Made by a program: the position numbers and the translations under genes. Below the pieces are notes generated by a model that saw only the letters and a program-made list of their open reading frames with translations, was not told the DNA's origin and searched no databases. From a virus, in the IMG/VR virus record IMGVR_UViG_3300044635_001017, positions 1 through 29,353 of that record: DNA of 29,353 bases, one strand, 5' to 3'. Positions 8,037 to 27,097 of the stretch are shown here, one piece after another. Positions within the stretch are counted from its first letter, which is position 1, and each line of letters opens with the position of its first letter.

Positions 8037-10285
8037 TTTACTCTCCAGTGCGAAATATATCGAGCCTTGCTCGGCTCAATGGTTACTTGAAACTTCCCAT
8101 GCCTATGTGCTTCCAGGGAATCAGGCCCGCCATGCAGCTTATTCTTTGCGATGGAAATGTAGCGATCAAGGGTGCCATCGCGCGGGTCACCAATAATGAT
8201 GATGCCGTCTGCTTCTCCGGGCTTGTCTGTCTTACTTCCGCGAAGGTGGTCCATTGTCACCCATTTCTCACCTTCAGCACTACCGTCTAATTGACTCACC
8301 GCAATGACTGGGCAATGAGTTTTAGCCAACTCTCTAGCCCATTTGTATAGAGCACCAATGCGCAAGTCATCGCGGTCGTTCTTAAACCCTTGCACCTTAT
8401 CTAGCTGATCGAAGATGATGAGGCCGGGCTTAAACTCCTTGCACATTCTTTCTACGGTGTGGGGGGTTACCTTAGTCTCATCATCAGTGATGAGGAAACG
8501 ATTACCGCCCGAAGCCAGAAACGCAGTTTCGTACTTACTAATAGAGGCAAACAAGTCACCTGTAGTCACTTGATGGTGAGCCTGCACTACTCTACTCATC
8601 ACCTTAGCACTACCTTCTTCGTTGTTAATCCACAAAATGTGTTCATCTTCTGCCATTTGTGGCATCATGTAAGAAGCTTCAGAAGCTATCATGGTGGTGT
8701 TGTGAGTAACTGTGTAATCCCCCAGTAAGAACAGGTGGTCTTGATCCACGCAAAATCCATAATAATCACCTTCTCCAATAGGTTGCACATCAATGCCAAA
8801 ATGTAGCCCCTTGCGCTTAGGTACTACTTTCGAGCGACAAAACTTTTTGCGCTCTACTTTTACGGGGATTCTATGCACATCACCATAAATAGACACTCGC
8901 CAATAACTTACTCCGTTAACAATTTTCTCACGCATAGTGGCGTGAAAGCCCAACCCACGCGCAAGATGAAGAATTTGTGTAGCTAATCCTTTTCGTACTT
9001 GTGTTATCTCATAACCATATCGCCCGCGACTACCATCTGTGTCCAGTAACCCTGCCAGTAAGCAAAGTCTGTTTTCCTTGCAATCCACCATATATTCATG
9101 GGGGATATGCTTGTTATTTAGCAGATTTAGTCCCGCCAAAGAATCACGGACGTAGTTCTTTTTACCTCTACCATTGTTAATAATAGCCGAGAGTGCTTTT
9201 CCTTGGTTTGTCCTAACTTCCTCACGATAGGACACACCTACGGTAGATACATACATACGTAACCACCTCAATACTTCACAGTCTGCGTTAGTAAGATTGC
9301 TGTTTTCTGAGGTTCCATCACCTAACCACAAACCCACAAAATATGGGTGCAAAGAATGCCGTGCTTCTGGATACTCTACAGCAGCCTTCCAGCCTTTGCA
9401 CCGTGCTTTTGTGCTTTTGGGAAGTGCAAGGTAGTCTCGTACACTGATGTTTAGTACATCGCCATTCTTATGCTTACCCTCGGTTTTGGAGCGCTTCAAA
9501 GAAAGAATATGGTCTTCGTTCACCACGTAACTTTCTCCAAACCCGTAACTGACACGGTAGAGCATGCTACTACCCTTAGTCACACCTGATACTAAGCGCG
9601 GTGCGTTACCTGGGCCAGCAACTACATCACCATTTTGCACATCCTGTACATTTTTAATAGTACCATTATGCATAAGAACGGGAGTGTCTTTACCTAGGCA
9701 TTTACCCGCCTCGGGACGAGCGGCAAGGATGATGAAATCACCCTTCCTTAGCGGCCCAAGTGATACATTAAGCTCTGTAAGGCGCCACTGTAGTCCCTTA
9801 CTTGCAACCACGCTGCTAATGTAGCTAAGAGAAGGGGGAACAAATAGCTTAGTCCTATCGAGTGTTGCCCCAATTTCCTTATCACGCTCATCCATAAAGT
9901 TACGAACATTGTCCAGGCTAGTGCCAGTGCGTCCCACACTGACGCCCAAAACTTCGTCATAGATGAGTGTTGCATAGTGCTTCTCAATGAGGGCTTTTTC
10001 AATGGCTTCTAGGGGTGCCGTAGTGGTTGGTTTCTTCAGTAGGTCAAAGGCAGCTTCATATGCAGCAGGGTCTTTAAGTTTCTTGCCTCGGCAAATGTAG
10101 AAGAATGTGCGTAGAGTGTCAATGTCCAAGGCAGTGTGTGCGGGGTAGTTATCCCAATAGTCACCCACTACAGAGAAAATGTCACTTGTAATGGAAGAGA
10201 CATTGCTCTTCTTAATAAGGGGGGCAAAGCGTGCCCACTTATCCTTATCTGCTGCTAGTCGAAGAATGTCAATGTCATAGCTCAT
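8033..10285 (-). CDS. dnaB: DnaB-like replicative helicase interrupted by an intein
   Basis: A 750-aa precursor: exteins of 195 and 221 residues (416 aa after splicing) around a 334-aa intein. The N-extein is a helical domain (1-150) followed by the RecA-like core start KGDFIILAARPEAGK. The C-extein begins TT, restoring the Walker A motif ARPEAGKTT. It then carries HILWINNEEGS, the Walker B strand PGLIIFDQLD, and the VIAVSQLDGSAEG and HLRGSKTDKPGEAD loops typical of hexameric DnaB/gp4 helicases that unwind forks 5'-3' using ATP. Primase is a separate gene here. GGGAGTTTAG before ATG is the ribosome site. Because the intein splits the P-loop, ATP hydrolysis should depend on splicing. Confidence 0.92.
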   Translation of the reverse strand: MSYDIDILRLAADKDKWARFAPLIKKSNVSSITSDIFSVVGDYWDNYPAHTALDIDTLRTFFYICRGKKLKDPAAYEAAFDLLKKPTTTAPLEAIEKALIEKHYATLIYDEVLGVSVGRTGTSLDNVRNFMDERDKEIGATLDRTKLFVPPSLSYISSVVASKGLQWRLTELNVSLGPLRKGDFIILAARPEAGKCLGKDTPVLMHNGTIKNVQDVQNGDVVAGPGNAPRLVSGVTKGSSMLYRVSYGFGESYVVNEDHILSLKRSKTEGKHKNGDVLNISVRDYLALPKSTKARCKGWKAAVEYPEARHSLHPYFVGLWLGDGTSENSNLTNADCEVLRWLRMYVSTVGVSYREEVRTNQGKALSAIINNGRGKKNYVRDSLAGLNLLNNKHIPHEYMVDCKENRLCLLAGLLDTDGSRGRYGYEITQVRKGLATQILHLARGLGFHATMREKIVNGVSYWRVSIYGDVHRIPVKVERKKFCRSKVVPKRKGLHFGIDVQPIGEGDYYGFCVDQDHLFLLGDYTVTHNTTMIASEASYMMPQMAEDEHILWINNEEGSAKVMSRVVQAHHQVTTGDLFASISKYETAFLASGGNRFLITDDETKVTPHTVERMCKEFKPGLIIFDQLDKVQGFKNDRDDLRIGALYKWARELAKTHCPVIAVSQLDGSAEGEKWVTMDHLRGSKTDKPGEADGIIIIGDPRDGTLDRYISIAKNKLHGGPDSLEAHRHGKFQVTIEPSKARYISHWRVK
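8699..9700 (-). mobile_element. Intein in DnaB-like helicase with LAGLIDADG homing endonuclease
   Basis: Residues 196-529 of the helicase ORF. Splicing block A is CLGKDTPVLMHNG with Cys1. Block B is ESYVVNEDHILSL with its His. LAGLIDADG blocks are FVGLWLGDGTSE (about 317-327) and LLAGLLDTDGSRG (about 409-421). Blocks F and G read YGFCVDQDHLFLLGDYTVTHN with the terminal His-Asn, and the next extein residue is Thr. All catalytic splicing residues and both endonuclease acidic motifs are present, so it appears active for splicing and possibly homing. The insertion is between Lys and Thr of Walker A, a known intein hot spot in P-loop ATPases. Confidence 0.93.
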
Positions 10286-12882: not shown

Positions 12883-12984
12883 TTACCAATGCACGATGAT
12901 TGCAATGAGGAGTGCCGTGATTGTGGCGGCTAGGCAAACCTCCACAAACAAAGACCATTTACGTGGCAGGAATAGGCGCCACAT
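12883..12984 (-). CDS. 33-aa single-pass membrane miniprotein
   Basis: ATG at 12984 overlaps the CobS-like stop (TGATG), with GAGGAAGTGTG upstream. It encodes MWRLFLPRKWSLFVEVCLAA and TITALLIAIIVHW: a short basic start and one transmembrane helix of about 20 residues, N-in by the positive-inside rule. Such small membrane proteins are common in phage early operons as inhibitors or modulators of host envelope proteins, but this one has no recognised family. Support comes from the ribosome site, overlap coupling and the clean hydrophobic pattern. Confidence 0.55.
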   Translation of the reverse strand: MWRLFLPRKWSLFVEVCLAATITALLIAIIVHW

Positions 12985-14042
12985 CACACTTCCTCGCCAA
13001 ACACCTTGCGGTAGATTTCCGAGACAGCTTTCTTGTCATCATCATGCAGCTTTTGCATGTAGGCTACCCGGAAGGCATGACCTTGCGAGTAACGCCCCAT
13101 CTTGCGACCCCAATTGATGAGGGTACGAGGGCTCATGGTGAGGCCCAGTTTACCGCTGTCATACGCACTGCGCACTAGACCCGCCATCTTCACCATATCC
13201 TGAGCCAGTGCCTTCGGCACGCTGGTGCGGCTAGTGATGATGGATACTTCGTGAGTGGCACTCAGGTAGTCCAGCCGGATCGTATTAGTAAAGCGGTCAA
13301 TGGTGGCAGTGTTTTGCACGCCTACACCATTGAATGCACCCGTGGTGTCACCCTGGCCCACCGTGTTACCGGCAAAGACAAGGCGGAAATTATCATGGGG
13401 GACGCATGTGCGGTCAGCACTGGTGCCCGGCTTCTCTTTCAGGTAGAGATAACCACCATCTTCCAGCAGGTTTTGCATGCCCATTGCAATTTCTGCGGGC
13501 ATCAGTTCCCACTCGTCAACAAGGCATACAGCACCATACTTGACAGCTTCAGTGATGGCACCATCGCGCCACACAGTGGCCCCGCCTTCGACAACAAGCG
13601 TGCCAAAGAGTGAGGCACTCTCCACATCACCGGACATATTGATGCGGATGAAGGGCCTATTCAACATGGCGCATACATACTTCACCATCGAACTTTTCCC
13701 GCTGCCCGTAGGGCCTGTGAGAAGAGTCTTGTCGTTATCCTCAATGCCAGCAACAAGTAGTGCCGCCTCCTCATTTTGCACTACATAATCAGGATCAACA
13801 GTGGGCACAAGGCGGGCAATTTCGGGATTGCTATTAGTAGGTAGCACAGTGACAGCGAAATCACCGAATGATGGCACGTAACCAAACACATCAGAAAACT
13901 TGGTAGCACCCTTCGGAATGCTAACCTTCGGCACTTCCGGTGCAGTCTTCTCTACCTTTTTCTTGGTGGCAGGTACCTCAGCAGCACCCTTGTCAGTAAT
14001 CTCGCGGAGCTTTGCGAGGAGTTCAGCAGCGACTTCAGCCAT
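12984..14042 (-). CDS. cobS-like: CobS-like AAA+ ATPase (MoxR type)
   Basis: A 352-aa AAA+ ATPase. After a Lys/Pro/Ala-rich N-terminal 45 residues and an FGYVPSFGD start come Walker A GPTGSGKSS (110-118), Walker B AVCLVDEWEL (D176-E177), sensor-1 LVFAGNT (N226) and an arginine-containing ATIDRF loop. This is the pattern of CobS, the ATPase of the aerobic cobalt chelatase, and of related MoxR ATPases. It lies directly beside a VWA protein of the CobT type, and such pairs work as an ATP-driven machine on a third partner. No CobN-like subunit is seen in this window, so cobalt insertion is not proved; a chaperone or remodelling role is equally possible. The ribosome site is AAGGA, 10 nt before ATG. 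Confidence 0.85.
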   Translation of the reverse strand: MAEVAAELLAKLREITDKGAAEVPATKKKVEKTAPEVPKVSIPKGATKFSDVFGYVPSFGDFAVTVLPTNSNPEIARLVPTVDPDYVVQNEEAALLVAGIEDNDKTLLTGPTGSGKSSMVKYVCAMLNRPFIRINMSGDVESASLFGTLVVEGGATVWRDGAITEAVKYGAVCLVDEWELMPAEIAMGMQNLLEDGGYLYLKEKPGTSADRTCVPHDNFRLVFAGNTVGQGDTTGAFNGVGVQNTATIDRFTNTIRLDYLSATHEVSIITSRTSVPKALAQDMVKMAGLVRSAYDSGKLGLTMSPRTLINWGRKMGRYSQGHAFRVAYMQKLHDDDKKAVSEIYRKVFGEEV

Positions 14043-14044
14043 GA

Positions 14045-15742
14045 TTAAATTTCCTTATCAAGAATAGAAAGAATAGAACTAGATAGGTCTTCGACCCTAT
14101 TAAGAACAACATTCTTGGTGTAATATTTCTTGACATTGCTGTCTAGGATGCCCACACCATAGATGGATGCAGCTTTACCTTTCTCAATGGATTCCACTAC
14201 ATGCTTAGTGTAGCCCGTAACATCACCAGCCCAATCCCGGCCAGCGGGGCTACCATCAGAAAGAACAATGAGGATGCGTCGCTTTTCCTTTCGTTGCATC
14301 AAATTGTTGAATGTCCAGGCGATGGCATCACCATCGCTATTGTTATAGAGAGCTTCAGATGCCTCTGCAAACCTATTAATCAGACTACCTTGATTGACAT
14401 TCTCCCCCCAGTCAGAGAACACATTGATAACTGGACTCTCTTGGGCATCTGAGCCATTGCTAAACCCAAAAATGGAATAGGCAATATGCAAAGGCATAAG
14501 GGCAAGGCCGACGGCAGCAGCAGCAGCACATGCCATTTCAAACTTGTGCCCCGACATAGAACCGGAACAATCTACTAGCAGACTTACAGCCGTGTCCAGG
14601 GTGTCTGTCGTGACATGGCGACGAAACACGCGGGATTCTGCCTCACTGCCTCGCGCAGACACCAATCTGTGAAGAGAGCCAGTGTGTAGCTTACCAGATT
14701 TTGTGCCATATTCATACCTGCCTTTTGACCTCACTTGCAGCTTATGCCGCAGCTTTGCGGAGAGGGGCTTAGTGTGCCCATCAATGATGGAAGAAACTTC
14801 ATTCTTCTTAAAATAGCGCCCATAACGGCCTTCGGCGCGACCAAATCTTTTGATGATGTAGTCACGACTAGACGGAATAATCCAGTCATTCCTACTAGAC
14901 ACCTCATGCAGTAGATGCTGACCAGTGCGAGATGGTTCAAAGTGAGAACCTCCCGTCAATTCTTTTTGGTATACATCAATGAGACGATCAATGTCGTCAC
15001 CAGGACCGGGTTCACTGCTACCTTTTCCCTTCTCTTTACCCTTGCCATCGCCTTTCTCCCCACCTTCCTTTACCTTCCCTTGCATTTCCTCCGGTTTCAT
15101 ATTAAAAATGTCGCGTACAATGTCCTCTGCTAGGGATAGCAGAGCAGTGGTGCCGCCATCTTTACGGGTGCGCAGACTAGCTAGTCGATCCCCGTAGGTT
15201 CCGGCCATCAGCTTTTCATAGCGCACTTTACTATCACCATCCATAGCAGCATGGATGGGTGTGTGGATGTCAGTGAGCCAGGACGACGCCCACTCTCGAT
15301 AATGACCCTCCCACGCGAAGACAGCAGAGAGCAGTTGACCCGCCTCCTTTGCAGCAGCGTCAGCTTTTGCAATGCGGGCAGCATATACAGGCACCCATTC
15401 GTTAGTTAGCTTGGCATCGCCCACCCATTCCCTGTCGTTCAAGTAATCAATGCGATTGTCTTCCAAGATGTTGCAAATAAATTGCAACAGAGACGACGTT
15501 TTCTTTTCGTTGAAGAATGAAAAGTCGGTGTAGGTGACATGCGAAGTTTCATGCTTGACGAAATACCGCAAGTCAACCAAATCGGAGGGGGTGGCAGAGC
15601 TACTAATACGGGGCAGCCACATGGTGCGGCCATCGGTGCGGGGCACACTGTGTGGCTTATCCCACATTACCCGTACATTTGCTTTTTCAGCACATGCGGC
15701 AATGTAGGTTTCAACGTGGCTAGTTTCTAGCAGAGTAGTCAT
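14045..15742 (-). CDS. cobT-like: CobT-like protein: HEXXH metallopeptidase-like region plus VWA domain
   Basis: A 565-aa protein. Near the N-terminus YFVKHETSHVTYTDF holds HEXXH (H64-H68), followed by FICNILEDNRID with E94 as a candidate third zinc ligand. A Lys/Gly/Glu-rich flexible stretch lies at about 220-250. The C-terminal part is a VWA domain with an intact MIDAS motif, LLVDCSGSMSG (D391, S393, S395), and later VLSDGSPAGRDW. CobT of cobalt chelatase has an acidic linker and a C-terminal VWA domain; the HEXXH part resembles the putative peptidase domain of other VWA proteins. With the neighbouring AAA+ ATPase it forms a MoxR/VWA pair. The start overlaps the preceding stop (TAATG). Confidence 0.83.
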   Translation of the reverse strand: MTTLLETSHVETYIAACAEKANVRVMWDKPHSVPRTDGRTMWLPRISSSATPSDLVDLRYFVKHETSHVTYTDFSFFNEKKTSSLLQFICNILEDNRIDYLNDREWVGDAKLTNEWVPVYAARIAKADAAAKEAGQLLSAVFAWEGHYREWASSWLTDIHTPIHAAMDGDSKVRYEKLMAGTYGDRLASLRTRKDGGTTALLSLAEDIVRDIFNMKPEEMQGKVKEGGEKGDGKGKEKGKGSSEPGPGDDIDRLIDVYQKELTGGSHFEPSRTGQHLLHEVSSRNDWIIPSSRDYIIKRFGRAEGRYGRYFKKNEVSSIIDGHTKPLSAKLRHKLQVRSKGRYEYGTKSGKLHTGSLHRLVSARGSEAESRVFRRHVTTDTLDTAVSLLVDCSGSMSGHKFEMACAAAAAVGLALMPLHIAYSIFGFSNGSDAQESPVINVFSDWGENVNQGSLINRFAEASEALYNNSDGDAIAWTFNNLMQRKEKRRILIVLSDGSPAGRDWAGDVTGYTKHVVESIEKGKAASIYGVGILDSNVKKYYTKNVVLNRVEDLSSSILSILDKEI

Positions 15743-24580: not shown

Positions 24581-27097
24581 TTGGCTAAACTTACAAAAGA
24601 ACAACGAGATGAGCTAAGGGCTGCTTGTGAAGCAGACTTAGAGACTTTTGTGCGCGCCATTGCCCCTCACCGTGTATTGGGGGCTGTACACAGTGAGTTA
24701 TTTCGCTGGTGGCAACGGGAGGATGCCAAGGATAATCAGTTAGTGCTGTTACCCCGCGATCATGGAAAAAGCGCCATGATGGCCTATCGCGTAGCATGGT
24801 GGATTACCAAGCATCCTGACGCCACTGTTCTTTATGTGTCAGCTACAGCCAACCTTGCCGAGAAGCAACTTAAAGCCATTAAGGATATTCTTACTAGCGA
24901 CATCTATCGCTACCTTTGGCCTGAAATGATTAATGAGAATGAGGGTAAGCGAGAAAAGTGGTCTATGGACGCCATTGCTGTAGACCACCCAAAGCGTAAG
25001 GCAGAGGGTGTTCGTGATGACACTGTTAAAGCTGCCGGCATCACTGCTAACGTCACTGGCCTCCATTGCACTATTGCTGTGCTTGATGACGTTGTGGTGC
25101 CTGACAATGCTTATACAGAAACTGGACGAGAGCAAGTAAGGGCATTCTACTCACAACTATCTTCCATTGAATCTACAGGGGCTAAGGAATGGTGCGTAGG
25201 TACGCGCTATCATCCTGGCGACCTGTACAAAGATATGATGGAAATGGTGGAAATCTACTACAACAGGGAAACGGAAGAAGATGTTGAGTTGCCCGTGTAC
25301 GAGGTGTTTGAACGAGTGGTTGAGACTAATGGCGAGTTTCTATGGCCTAAGCAGCGCCGAAGCGATGGCAAAACATTTGGCTTTGACGAAAAAGAGTTAG
25401 CCCGTAAGAAAGCCAAATACCTAGATGTAACTCAGTTCTATTGTTTTACACCCGACACATTAGCATATACCGACCAAGGCCACAAACTTATTAGTAGTGT
25501 TGAAGTGGGCGACAGCTTTGGTGGCAATAAAGTAGCTAATAAATTTATTCGGGATATTGCGGAAGACATTGCCGAAGTAAGTGTTTATGGTGTGCCCCAC
25601 GCTATCAATGTTACCTATGGGCACAAATTTCCAATTAGGTCCAAGACAGTTAAAAAGGATTACGGCACTTCTAATAAACAAATCGGGGACTGGTTAAATA
25701 AACAAAAAACAGAACGGTGGTATTTAGCCCATTCGTTTGAAACTAAAGTTATAGACACACCATTTGAAGAAGATGTTTGGTGGCTTATTGGGCACTGGTT
25801 AGCTGAGGGATATGTCTGGAAGAAATATGTAGCTTTGTGCACAAGAAATCCACAAGAGAAGGGTATCCACGATAAGATTAACTCCATCTTACACAAATAT
25901 GGAATACACTCAATACAGACAGTAACTAAAGCTAATACTCGTATTTTTTTACTAGATTGGCCTGAACTACTTGCCTATTTGCGCAACTTTGGCTATTACA
26001 GTTATGGCAAACACCTAAATGATGAAGCTAAATATGCATCTAAGGAAAAGCAAGAACAACTTATTCAAGGTTATTTGTTAGGTGACGGGTTTACACTGAC
26101 TAACCAAGTTGGGTTTGGTATTACTTCAGTTAATTTACGCCTACTGGAAGAAATTAAAGATGTACTTCTTCGTCTAGGGCACATTCCTTACATTGTGCAA
26201 CTGTACGGAGAAGGTAGAGAAGCATTTGGGTATAAATGTAGGGAGTGTTTTAGCATTAGGTGGTATGGTACAACTAAGTCGCGTAACTTTATTGAAAATG
26301 GAACCTATTACCAACTCATTCAAAAAGTAATTCCCACTTGGTACAATGGGCCAGTACACACCCTAGAGGTGGAAAACACTCATCAATATAATGTGTATGG
26401 ACTTACTTGTCAAAACAGTCAATATTACAACAATCCTAACGCTGTAGAATTGTCCATCATTGACAAGAGTAGGTTTAACTATTACGAAAAGAGTAAGGTA
26501 GAAAACATTAGCGGCACTTGGCACATTGGCAATAAAGACCTTACCATTTATGCCGCTATGGATTTTGCCTATTCTATTAGTAATAGTGCTGACTACACGG
26601 CAATAGTGGTAGTGGGAGTAGACGAAGATTACAACTATTATGTTCTAGACATTGACAGGTTTAAGACTAATAAAATTAGCGTAATGTATGAGCATGCAGA
26701 AAAAGTCTACCGCAAGTGGCGTTTCCGCAAGTTGCGGGCTGAAGCTGTAGCTGCGCAACGCCTCATTGTACAGCAGTTCAAAGATTTTATGCGTAGCCAA
26801 TCTGTAGTGTTTTCCATTGACGAGTATTTTCCTCCTAAAACAATGAACAAGGCAGAACGCATTGCAAGCGTGCTAGAGCCACGTTATCAGAATGGGCAAA
26901 TGTTTCACTACCAAGGTGGCAACTGTCAAATTCTTGAAGAGGAATTGCTGATGAATAACCCGGAGCATGATGACGTAAAGGATGCTCTAGCCTCTTGTGT
27001 AGAAATTGCTAAACCCAGCATTTCTAGCACCAGTTGGTCACGTAAAGGAAACGTAGTGAACTTCAACAACAAGTGGGGTGGAGTGGCAATGCGATGA
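24581..27097 (+). CDS. terL: Terminase large subunit interrupted by an intein
   Basis: An 838-aa precursor: 287 + 226 extein residues (513 aa mature) around a 325-aa intein. The ATPase shows the terminase-style Walker A LLPRDHGKSAM and Walker B TIAVLDDVV (D169-D170), then CVGTRYHPGDLY (coupling/motif III region). After the intein the nuclease domain starts YAAMDFAYSISNSADYTAIV (first catalytic Asp) and ends with HDDVKDALA (another Asp). It powers DNA translocation into the capsid and cuts concatemers. The start is TTG 24581; no in-frame ATG occurs before residue 66, which is inside the ATPase domain. There is no ribosome site, so coupling to the 55-aa gene is likely. The end overlaps the portal start as ATGA. 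Confidence 0.92.
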   Translation: MAKLTKEQRDELRAACEADLETFVRAIAPHRVLGAVHSELFRWWQREDAKDNQLVLLPRDHGKSAMMAYRVAWWITKHPDATVLYVSATANLAEKQLKAIKDILTSDIYRYLWPEMINENEGKREKWSMDAIAVDHPKRKAEGVRDDTVKAAGITANVTGLHCTIAVLDDVVVPDNAYTETGREQVRAFYSQLSSIESTGAKEWCVGTRYHPGDLYKDMMEMVEIYYNRETEEDVELPVYEVFERVVETNGEFLWPKQRRSDGKTFGFDEKELARKKAKYLDVTQFYCFTPDTLAYTDQGHKLISSVEVGDSFGGNKVANKFIRDIAEDIAEVSVYGVPHAINVTYGHKFPIRSKTVKKDYGTSNKQIGDWLNKQKTERWYLAHSFETKVIDTPFEEDVWWLIGHWLAEGYVWKKYVALCTRNPQEKGIHDKINSILHKYGIHSIQTVTKANTRIFLLDWPELLAYLRNFGYYSYGKHLNDEAKYASKEKQEQLIQGYLLGDGFTLTNQVGFGITSVNLRLLEEIKDVLLRLGHIPYIVQLYGEGREAFGYKCRECFSIRWYGTTKSRNFIENGTYYQLIQKVIPTWYNGPVHTLEVENTHQYNVYGLTCQNSQYYNNPNAVELSIIDKSRFNYYEKSKVENISGTWHIGNKDLTIYAAMDFAYSISNSADYTAIVVVGVDEDYNYYVLDIDRFKTNKISVMYEHAEKVYRKWRFRKLRAEAVAAQRLIVQQFKDFMRSQSVVFSIDEYFPPKTMNKAERIASVLEPRYQNGQMFHYQGGNCQILEEELLMNNPEHDDVKDALASCVEIAKPSISSTSWSRKGNVVNFNNKWGGVAMR
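25442..26416 (+). mobile_element. Intein in terminase large subunit with LAGLIDADG endonuclease, ending Gln-Asn
   Basis: Residues 288-612 of the TerL ORF. Block A is CFTPDTLAYTDQGHKLISSV with Cys1. Block B is PHAINVTYGHKFPI (T-x-x-H). LAGLIDADG-type blocks are WLIGHWLAEGYV and GYLLGDGFTLT. Blocks F/G are HTLEVENTHQYNVYGLTCQN, followed by extein Ser. The extein rejoins as QFY-SQYYNNP, a conserved terminase stretch. The penultimate residue is Gln instead of the usual His. The insert is visibly AT-richer than the flanking terminase sequence, supporting a foreign source. Confidence 0.9.

Follow-up and report, generated by a model that had tools for sequence, protein, structure and literature searches.

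The window analysed here is a 29,353-nucleotide stretch of viral DNA (IMG/VR record IMGVR_UViG_3300044635_001017) in which the gene for the terminase large subunit (TerL) carries an in-frame insert that ends in Gln-Asn. As a penultimate His is typical of class 1 inteins, though optional, the locus raises the question of whether the insert is a working intein, and of what the Gln means for its splicing. We propose that it is very likely a working class 1 LAGLIDADG intein, from a lineage that homes into the bond QFY/S of T7-type TerLs (the slash marks splice junctions throughout), and that it dispenses with the penultimate His. The insert, its boundaries, its conserved residues and its lineage are read directly from the sequence, and from these we infer the splicing reaction, its rate and the compensation for the missing His.

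The TerL insert, its limits and its fold

The TerL reading frame opens with a TTG start and runs for 838 codons (24581-27097, + strand) with no internal stop. It matches PHROG 38 (E 4e-81) and the T7-type TerL model NF033889 (E 4.5e-33, which is under the curated cut-off of that model), and the host protein displays both the ATPase and the RNase H-like nuclease domain (PHROG 38, Terminase_6C). Removal of 325 residues yields a protein that aligns without gaps across the junction TQFY/[AS]QYYNNP with intein-free IMG/VR relatives, which places both junctions beyond doubt; an alternative splice junction is ruled out by the same alleles. These relatives include L005-L013 and L015-L017, which are 63-78% identical to the window TerL, and L014, which is 95.5% identical over 379 residues. 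The insert thus delimited reads CFTPDT...NVYGLTCQN and is followed by Ser (AGT), with CAA as the Gln codon, so that the original prediction of a 325-residue TerL intein ending C-Q-N before an extein Ser is borne out. The same insert recurs in three further IMG/VR contigs (L001-L003), whose DNA agrees with the window at 99.8-99.95% of positions over 4-6 kb, while a fourth (L004; 95.6% identical) holds only the first part and stops inside the intein; a sequencing error can therefore be rejected, the contigs bearing different IMG dataset numbers although the samples are possibly not independent.

Table 1. Coordinates in the window of the TerL gene parts, the splicing and endonuclease elements and the helicase intein
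Feature	Position	Strand	Basis
TerL N-extein, 287 aa, ATPase domain, C-terminal TQFY	24581..25441	+	PHROG 38, NF033889; gapless against intein-free TerLs
TerL intein, 325 aa (975 nt), class 1, Hint plus LAGLIDADG homing endonuclease	25442..26416	+	exact insert against intein-free alleles; model; Pfam LAGLIDADG_3
Cys1, block A nucleophile	25442..25444	+	C in 43/43 related inteins
Block B T58-Y-G-H61-K62 (TxxH; Lys62 = B:11)	25613..25627	+	H61 43/43, T58 42/43
LAGLIDADG endonuclease region, WWLIGHWLAEG (E122) to LIQGYLLGDG (D215), Lys190 between	25778..26089	+	E/D122, K190 and D215 conserved 43/43
Blocks F and G: T307 (F:4), H314 (F:13), C323 (G:5), Q324 (G:6), N325 (G:7)	26360..26416	+	alignment A4; model against Mtu RecA
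+1 Ser (AGT), C-extein nucleophile	26417..26419	+	Ala in 78/80 sampled intein-free alleles
TerL C-extein, 226 aa, RNase H-like nuclease domain	26417..27097	+	Terminase_6C; gapless against intein-free TerLs
Helicase intein, 334 aa, P-loop GK/T, THN/T, separate element	8699..9700	-	absent from L012 and L017 record helicases

A PDB sequence search with the single intein recovered nothing useful, whereas a profile search and a structural model did find matches. The AlphaFold2 prediction for the insert plus five TerL residues on either side (mean pLDDT 91.2, pTM 0.90) has the TliVMA intein (7qsu) as its top PDB match (Z 25.9 over 302 residues), and also matches the splicing domain of the Mtu RecA intein (2imz; Z 14.5), with model residues 6-330 laid on RecA 1-440, so that the Hint horseshoe is shared from end to end and Cys1 and Asn325 are paired with RecA Cys1 and Asn440. 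The Mtu RecA intein has Asp at F:4 (D422) and a penultimate His (H439), unlike the window intein. Between the splicing blocks, Pfam LAGLIDADG_3 detects an endonuclease with two LAGLIDADG motifs bearing catalytic acids (LIGHWLAEG and LIQGYLLGDG), and model residues 110-285 match I-DmoI and I-Tsp061I with Glu122 and Asp215 in place. Together, the end-to-end fold match and the match to these endonucleases indicate, at the level of the model, that the insert is a complete class 1 intein whose homing endonuclease looks intact.

Insertion site, distribution and a second intein

To place the insertion in the terminase fold we used the model of an intein-free homologue (L007; pLDDT 86.4), which matches the phage PhiV-1 TerL and T4 gp17 and in which the insertion point falls at Tyr280/Ala281, within helix 276-284. 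Matches to the isolated ATPase domains of T4 gp17 and P74-26 stop at L007 residues 288-290 in most rows, and those to isolated nuclease domains start at about 287-294; the modelled site is thus the last helix of the ATPase domain, at its boundary with the nuclease. The residues around it (T277, Q278, Y280, Q282, Y283, Y284, N285, P287 and N288) show no variation among 34 TerLs, which partly reflects how these were chosen, with a pattern demanding several flanking residues. Judging from the model, an unspliced precursor would break this conserved helix and would be unlikely to package DNA. In the 80 empty sites sampled the +1 residue is Ala in 78 and Ser in two; both intein-bearing lineages have Ser, as the splicing chemistry requires Ser, Thr or Cys, and they encode it with different codon families (AGT in the window, TCA in L031).

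The second of these lineages emerged from a search of IMG/VR. A scan with the intein alone returned only copies of the window allele, and a profile built from six inteins was required to reach its relatives. Among them is L031 (IMGVR_UViG_3300031485_000012; L031/L228), a divergent phage in which the same TerL bond is interrupted by an intein 57% identical to that of the window and with the same endonuclease. The two form one clade with 100/100 support and share T307, H314, K62, C323, N325 and the +1 Ser, but the L031 intein ends C-K-N/S, its penultimate Lys (AAA) being one base away from the Gln codon of the window. The 57% identity of the inteins exceeds that of their exteins (44% and 48%), and the window intein is AT-richer than its exteins (GC 0.384 against 0.45), both of which are consistent with horizontal homing between phage lineages. 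Comparison of the two inteins yields a purifying pattern (pN 0.32, pS 0.85, with synonymous sites saturated), and the TerL exteins are strongly constrained relative to L014 (dN 0.02-0.04, dS 0.3-1.2). Scanning by motif recovered inteins at precisely this bond only in copies of the window allele and in L031, set beside at least 120 TerL stretches with an empty site, and none was found in the bacterial and archaeal genome contigs scanned. The intein is accordingly missing from nearly all the relatives sampled.

The close relative L014 shows two further peculiarities at this locus. At the junction it differs from the window by four adjacent silent bases (TAT/AGT in the window against TAC/TCG), corresponding to window positions 25441 and 26417-26419, with no others between -69 and +32; these differences could reflect homing resistance, past loss of an intein or an independent Ala-to-Ser change. 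Over L014:1-3399 the DNA identity to the window is 93% upstream of the insertion point and 85% downstream, a drop that hints at a recombination boundary close to where the intein sits.

A TerL of another family (L034:3001-4080) holds an intein at F/SAEYQ, one residue off the site in the window, again with Ser at +1 and in an apparently corresponding FxxEY/QYY motif (here the slash separates two motif forms). That intein is at most 27% identical and ends in a canonical HN/S, and its position one residue away suggests that the motif is a recurrent intein target, seemingly struck more than once. The mycobacteriophage TerL inteins, which have been shown to splice and two of which cut intein-free alleles, lie elsewhere in the ATPase domain (PMC5050341); they interrupt the P-loop and other motifs in TerLs of the Terminase_1 and Terminase_6 types. 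Likewise, the crAss-like TerL inteins (L023, L024 and L037; PMC7886860) resemble the present one in being LAGLIDADG elements of TerL, a few with a penultimate Lys, but they occupy the site YI[AG]G/CDP, mostly end in HN/C and are longer (about 371-411 residues). As far as the available text of the cited phage-intein literature goes, neither the present TerL insertion site nor the L031 intein found in this analysis has been described earlier; what is new is, modestly, the Gln itself and the use of this last ATPase helix as a target.

The window does contain a second intein, in the helicase gene, as had been predicted. It is only 19% identical to the TerL intein, its best phage matches are mostly the helicase inteins of other phages, and the L012 and L017 records lack it, as they lack the TerL intein; the two are thus separate mobile elements of separate origin. 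The helicase intein is canonical and about 35-43% identical to helicase inteins of Salmonella, Klebsiella and Vibrio phages. The accompanying claim that two inteins in one phage are unusual does not hold, given that crAss-like genomes carry up to three (PMC7886860) and that several per phage are reported for mycobacteriophage subcluster C1 (PMC5050341). The crAss-like TerL reading frame of L037 itself apparently has two, the second ending SQKN/C with a penultimate Lys. Elsewhere in this T7-like phage contig a gene for a MoxR-type AAA ATPase adjoins one for a CobT-like VWA-domain protein (12984-15742, - strand), forming a chelatase-like pair.

The penultimate position among related phage inteins

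With its N-terminal Cys1, block B TxxH and Asn325 followed by Ser, the insert has the hallmarks of class 1, and Gln324 does not exclude this class, since about 5% of functional inteins lack the penultimate His (PMC4031507). We then compared the residues at this position across 43 related phage inteins (alignment A4). While Cys1, the B:10 His and the terminal Asn are present in all 43, G:6 is His in 29, Lys in 13 and Gln only in the window intein, leaving the penultimate His missing in 14, and the tree requires at least six changes involving a non-His label. F:4 is similarly labile (Asn 28, Asp 8, Ser 5, Thr 2), and F:13 is His in 21 of the 43. Most relatives that carry Lys at G:6 have a residue other than His at F:13, so a His there is no general rule for the members without a penultimate His. 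A basic residue at B:11, which is Lys in both the window and L031 inteins, accompanies non-His G:6 in 9 of 14 cases against 5 of 29 otherwise (Fisher p 0.004, ignoring shared ancestry); as other columns associate more strongly, this is only a hint.

The Lys of the same-bond ortholog and the counts among the wider relatives show loss of the penultimate His to be recurrent in phages, as is already known from mycobacteriophages. The class 1 inteins of the latter often have Gly, Lys or Ser at G:6, a block F His being able to substitute, although the available text of PMC5050341 mentions no Gln there. Related endonuclease-bearing inteins of mycobacteriophage DNA methylases (Doug gp68 and relatives) and of the Lactococcus phage 949 NrdD, about 22-25% identical, also have a penultimate Lys, but they differ in F:13 (Glu or Ala), in +1 Cys and in host gene. 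A literature search for an intein with a penultimate Gln found none in open-access papers, though one might exist elsewhere. In light of the several related phage inteins without this His, and of other residues that probably do its job, we regard Gln324 as a real but fairly ordinary variation.

Proposed splicing and competing explanations

In the reaction that we posit, Cys1 would attack the carbonyl of Tyr-1 with the aid of Thr58 and His61, the acyl group would pass to Ser+1, and Asn325 would cyclise with His314 (F:13), and possibly Lys62 (B:11), replacing the His at G:6; a final acyl shift would then leave Tyr-Ser in the spliced TerL, at a place mostly taken by Tyr-Ala in intein-free alleles. 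Asn cyclisation is helped by His residues at both G:6 and F:13, and in the Ssp DnaE intein an Arg at B:11 was proposed to assist it (PMC4031507); by analogy, compensation for the penultimate His would probably come from His314 and perhaps from Lys62. Reversion to His at G:6 aids some inteins and harms others (same source), and in the mycobacteriophage RDF intein, which has a penultimate Gly, a Gly-to-His change slowed splicing (PMC5050341). It is on these precedents that we expect normal class 1 splicing; the slow splicing or altered mechanism inferred earlier from the missing His finds no support in them, nor in the presence of His314, and Gln324 is most probably a tolerated residue, not a regulatory one.

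Other readings of the same features can be weighed against this. The deviation of F:4 from Asp, together with a Cys close to the C-terminus (G:5), might be taken to place the insert in class 3 or class 2, or among the bacterial intein-like domains, instead of class 1. This is extremely improbable, as Cys1 speaks against both classes, and class 3, which is defined by a position 1 without a nucleophile and a WCT triplet (Trp B:12, Cys F:4, Thr G:5), is rejected by the Thr at F:4 and the Cys at G:5 as well; the terminal Asn with Ser next to it, like the precise placement of the insert in a conserved motif, points to an intein and not to a bacterial intein-like domain. With F:4 Thr added to G:6 Gln, two assisting positions depart from the consensus, though Asp at F:4 occurs in only 8 of the 43 relatives, and one could envisage a decaying intein with impaired splicing, the phage persisting by low-level splicing or the allele failing. 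We find such decay very unlikely in view of the open frame with every nucleophile intact, the purifying pattern against L031, the strong constraint on the exteins and the occurrence of the same allele in several contigs.

A regulatory role, as envisaged in the original prediction, would mean that selection favored Gln324 for making splicing slow or conditional, thereby delaying active TerL and placing packaging after replication. The penultimate residue can indeed affect how much precursor of a phage intein accumulates (PMC5050341), and an unspliced insert at the ATPase/nuclease boundary would probably block function. However, in the phage case tested there the non-His residue gave faster splicing; the ortholog has Lys, so that Gln itself is not conserved; and since the intein is missing from nearly all relatives, the group needs no such timer. 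No evidence for timing of packaging relative to replication was found in this analysis, nor any link of either intein to it, and we give such selection scant likelihood. A broader variant, in which Gln or Lys in place of His, Thr at F:4 and a basic B:11 would form a distinct arrangement for Asn cyclisation specific to this TerL lineage, with a rate possibly tuned to late packaging, also seems unlikely.

The reading that we favor, a working class 1 intein that tolerates Gln324, extends the range of penultimate residues in natural phage inteins to include Gln, and provides another site of insertion in TerL, where its ATPase domain ends. As the penultimate His is missing in a third of the related phage inteins (14 of 43), its absence alone is not to be read as regulation. 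The window and L031 inteins, with Gln and Lys, respectively, at the same site and with the same F:4 and F:13, constitute a natural experiment on how an intein copes with the lack of this His.
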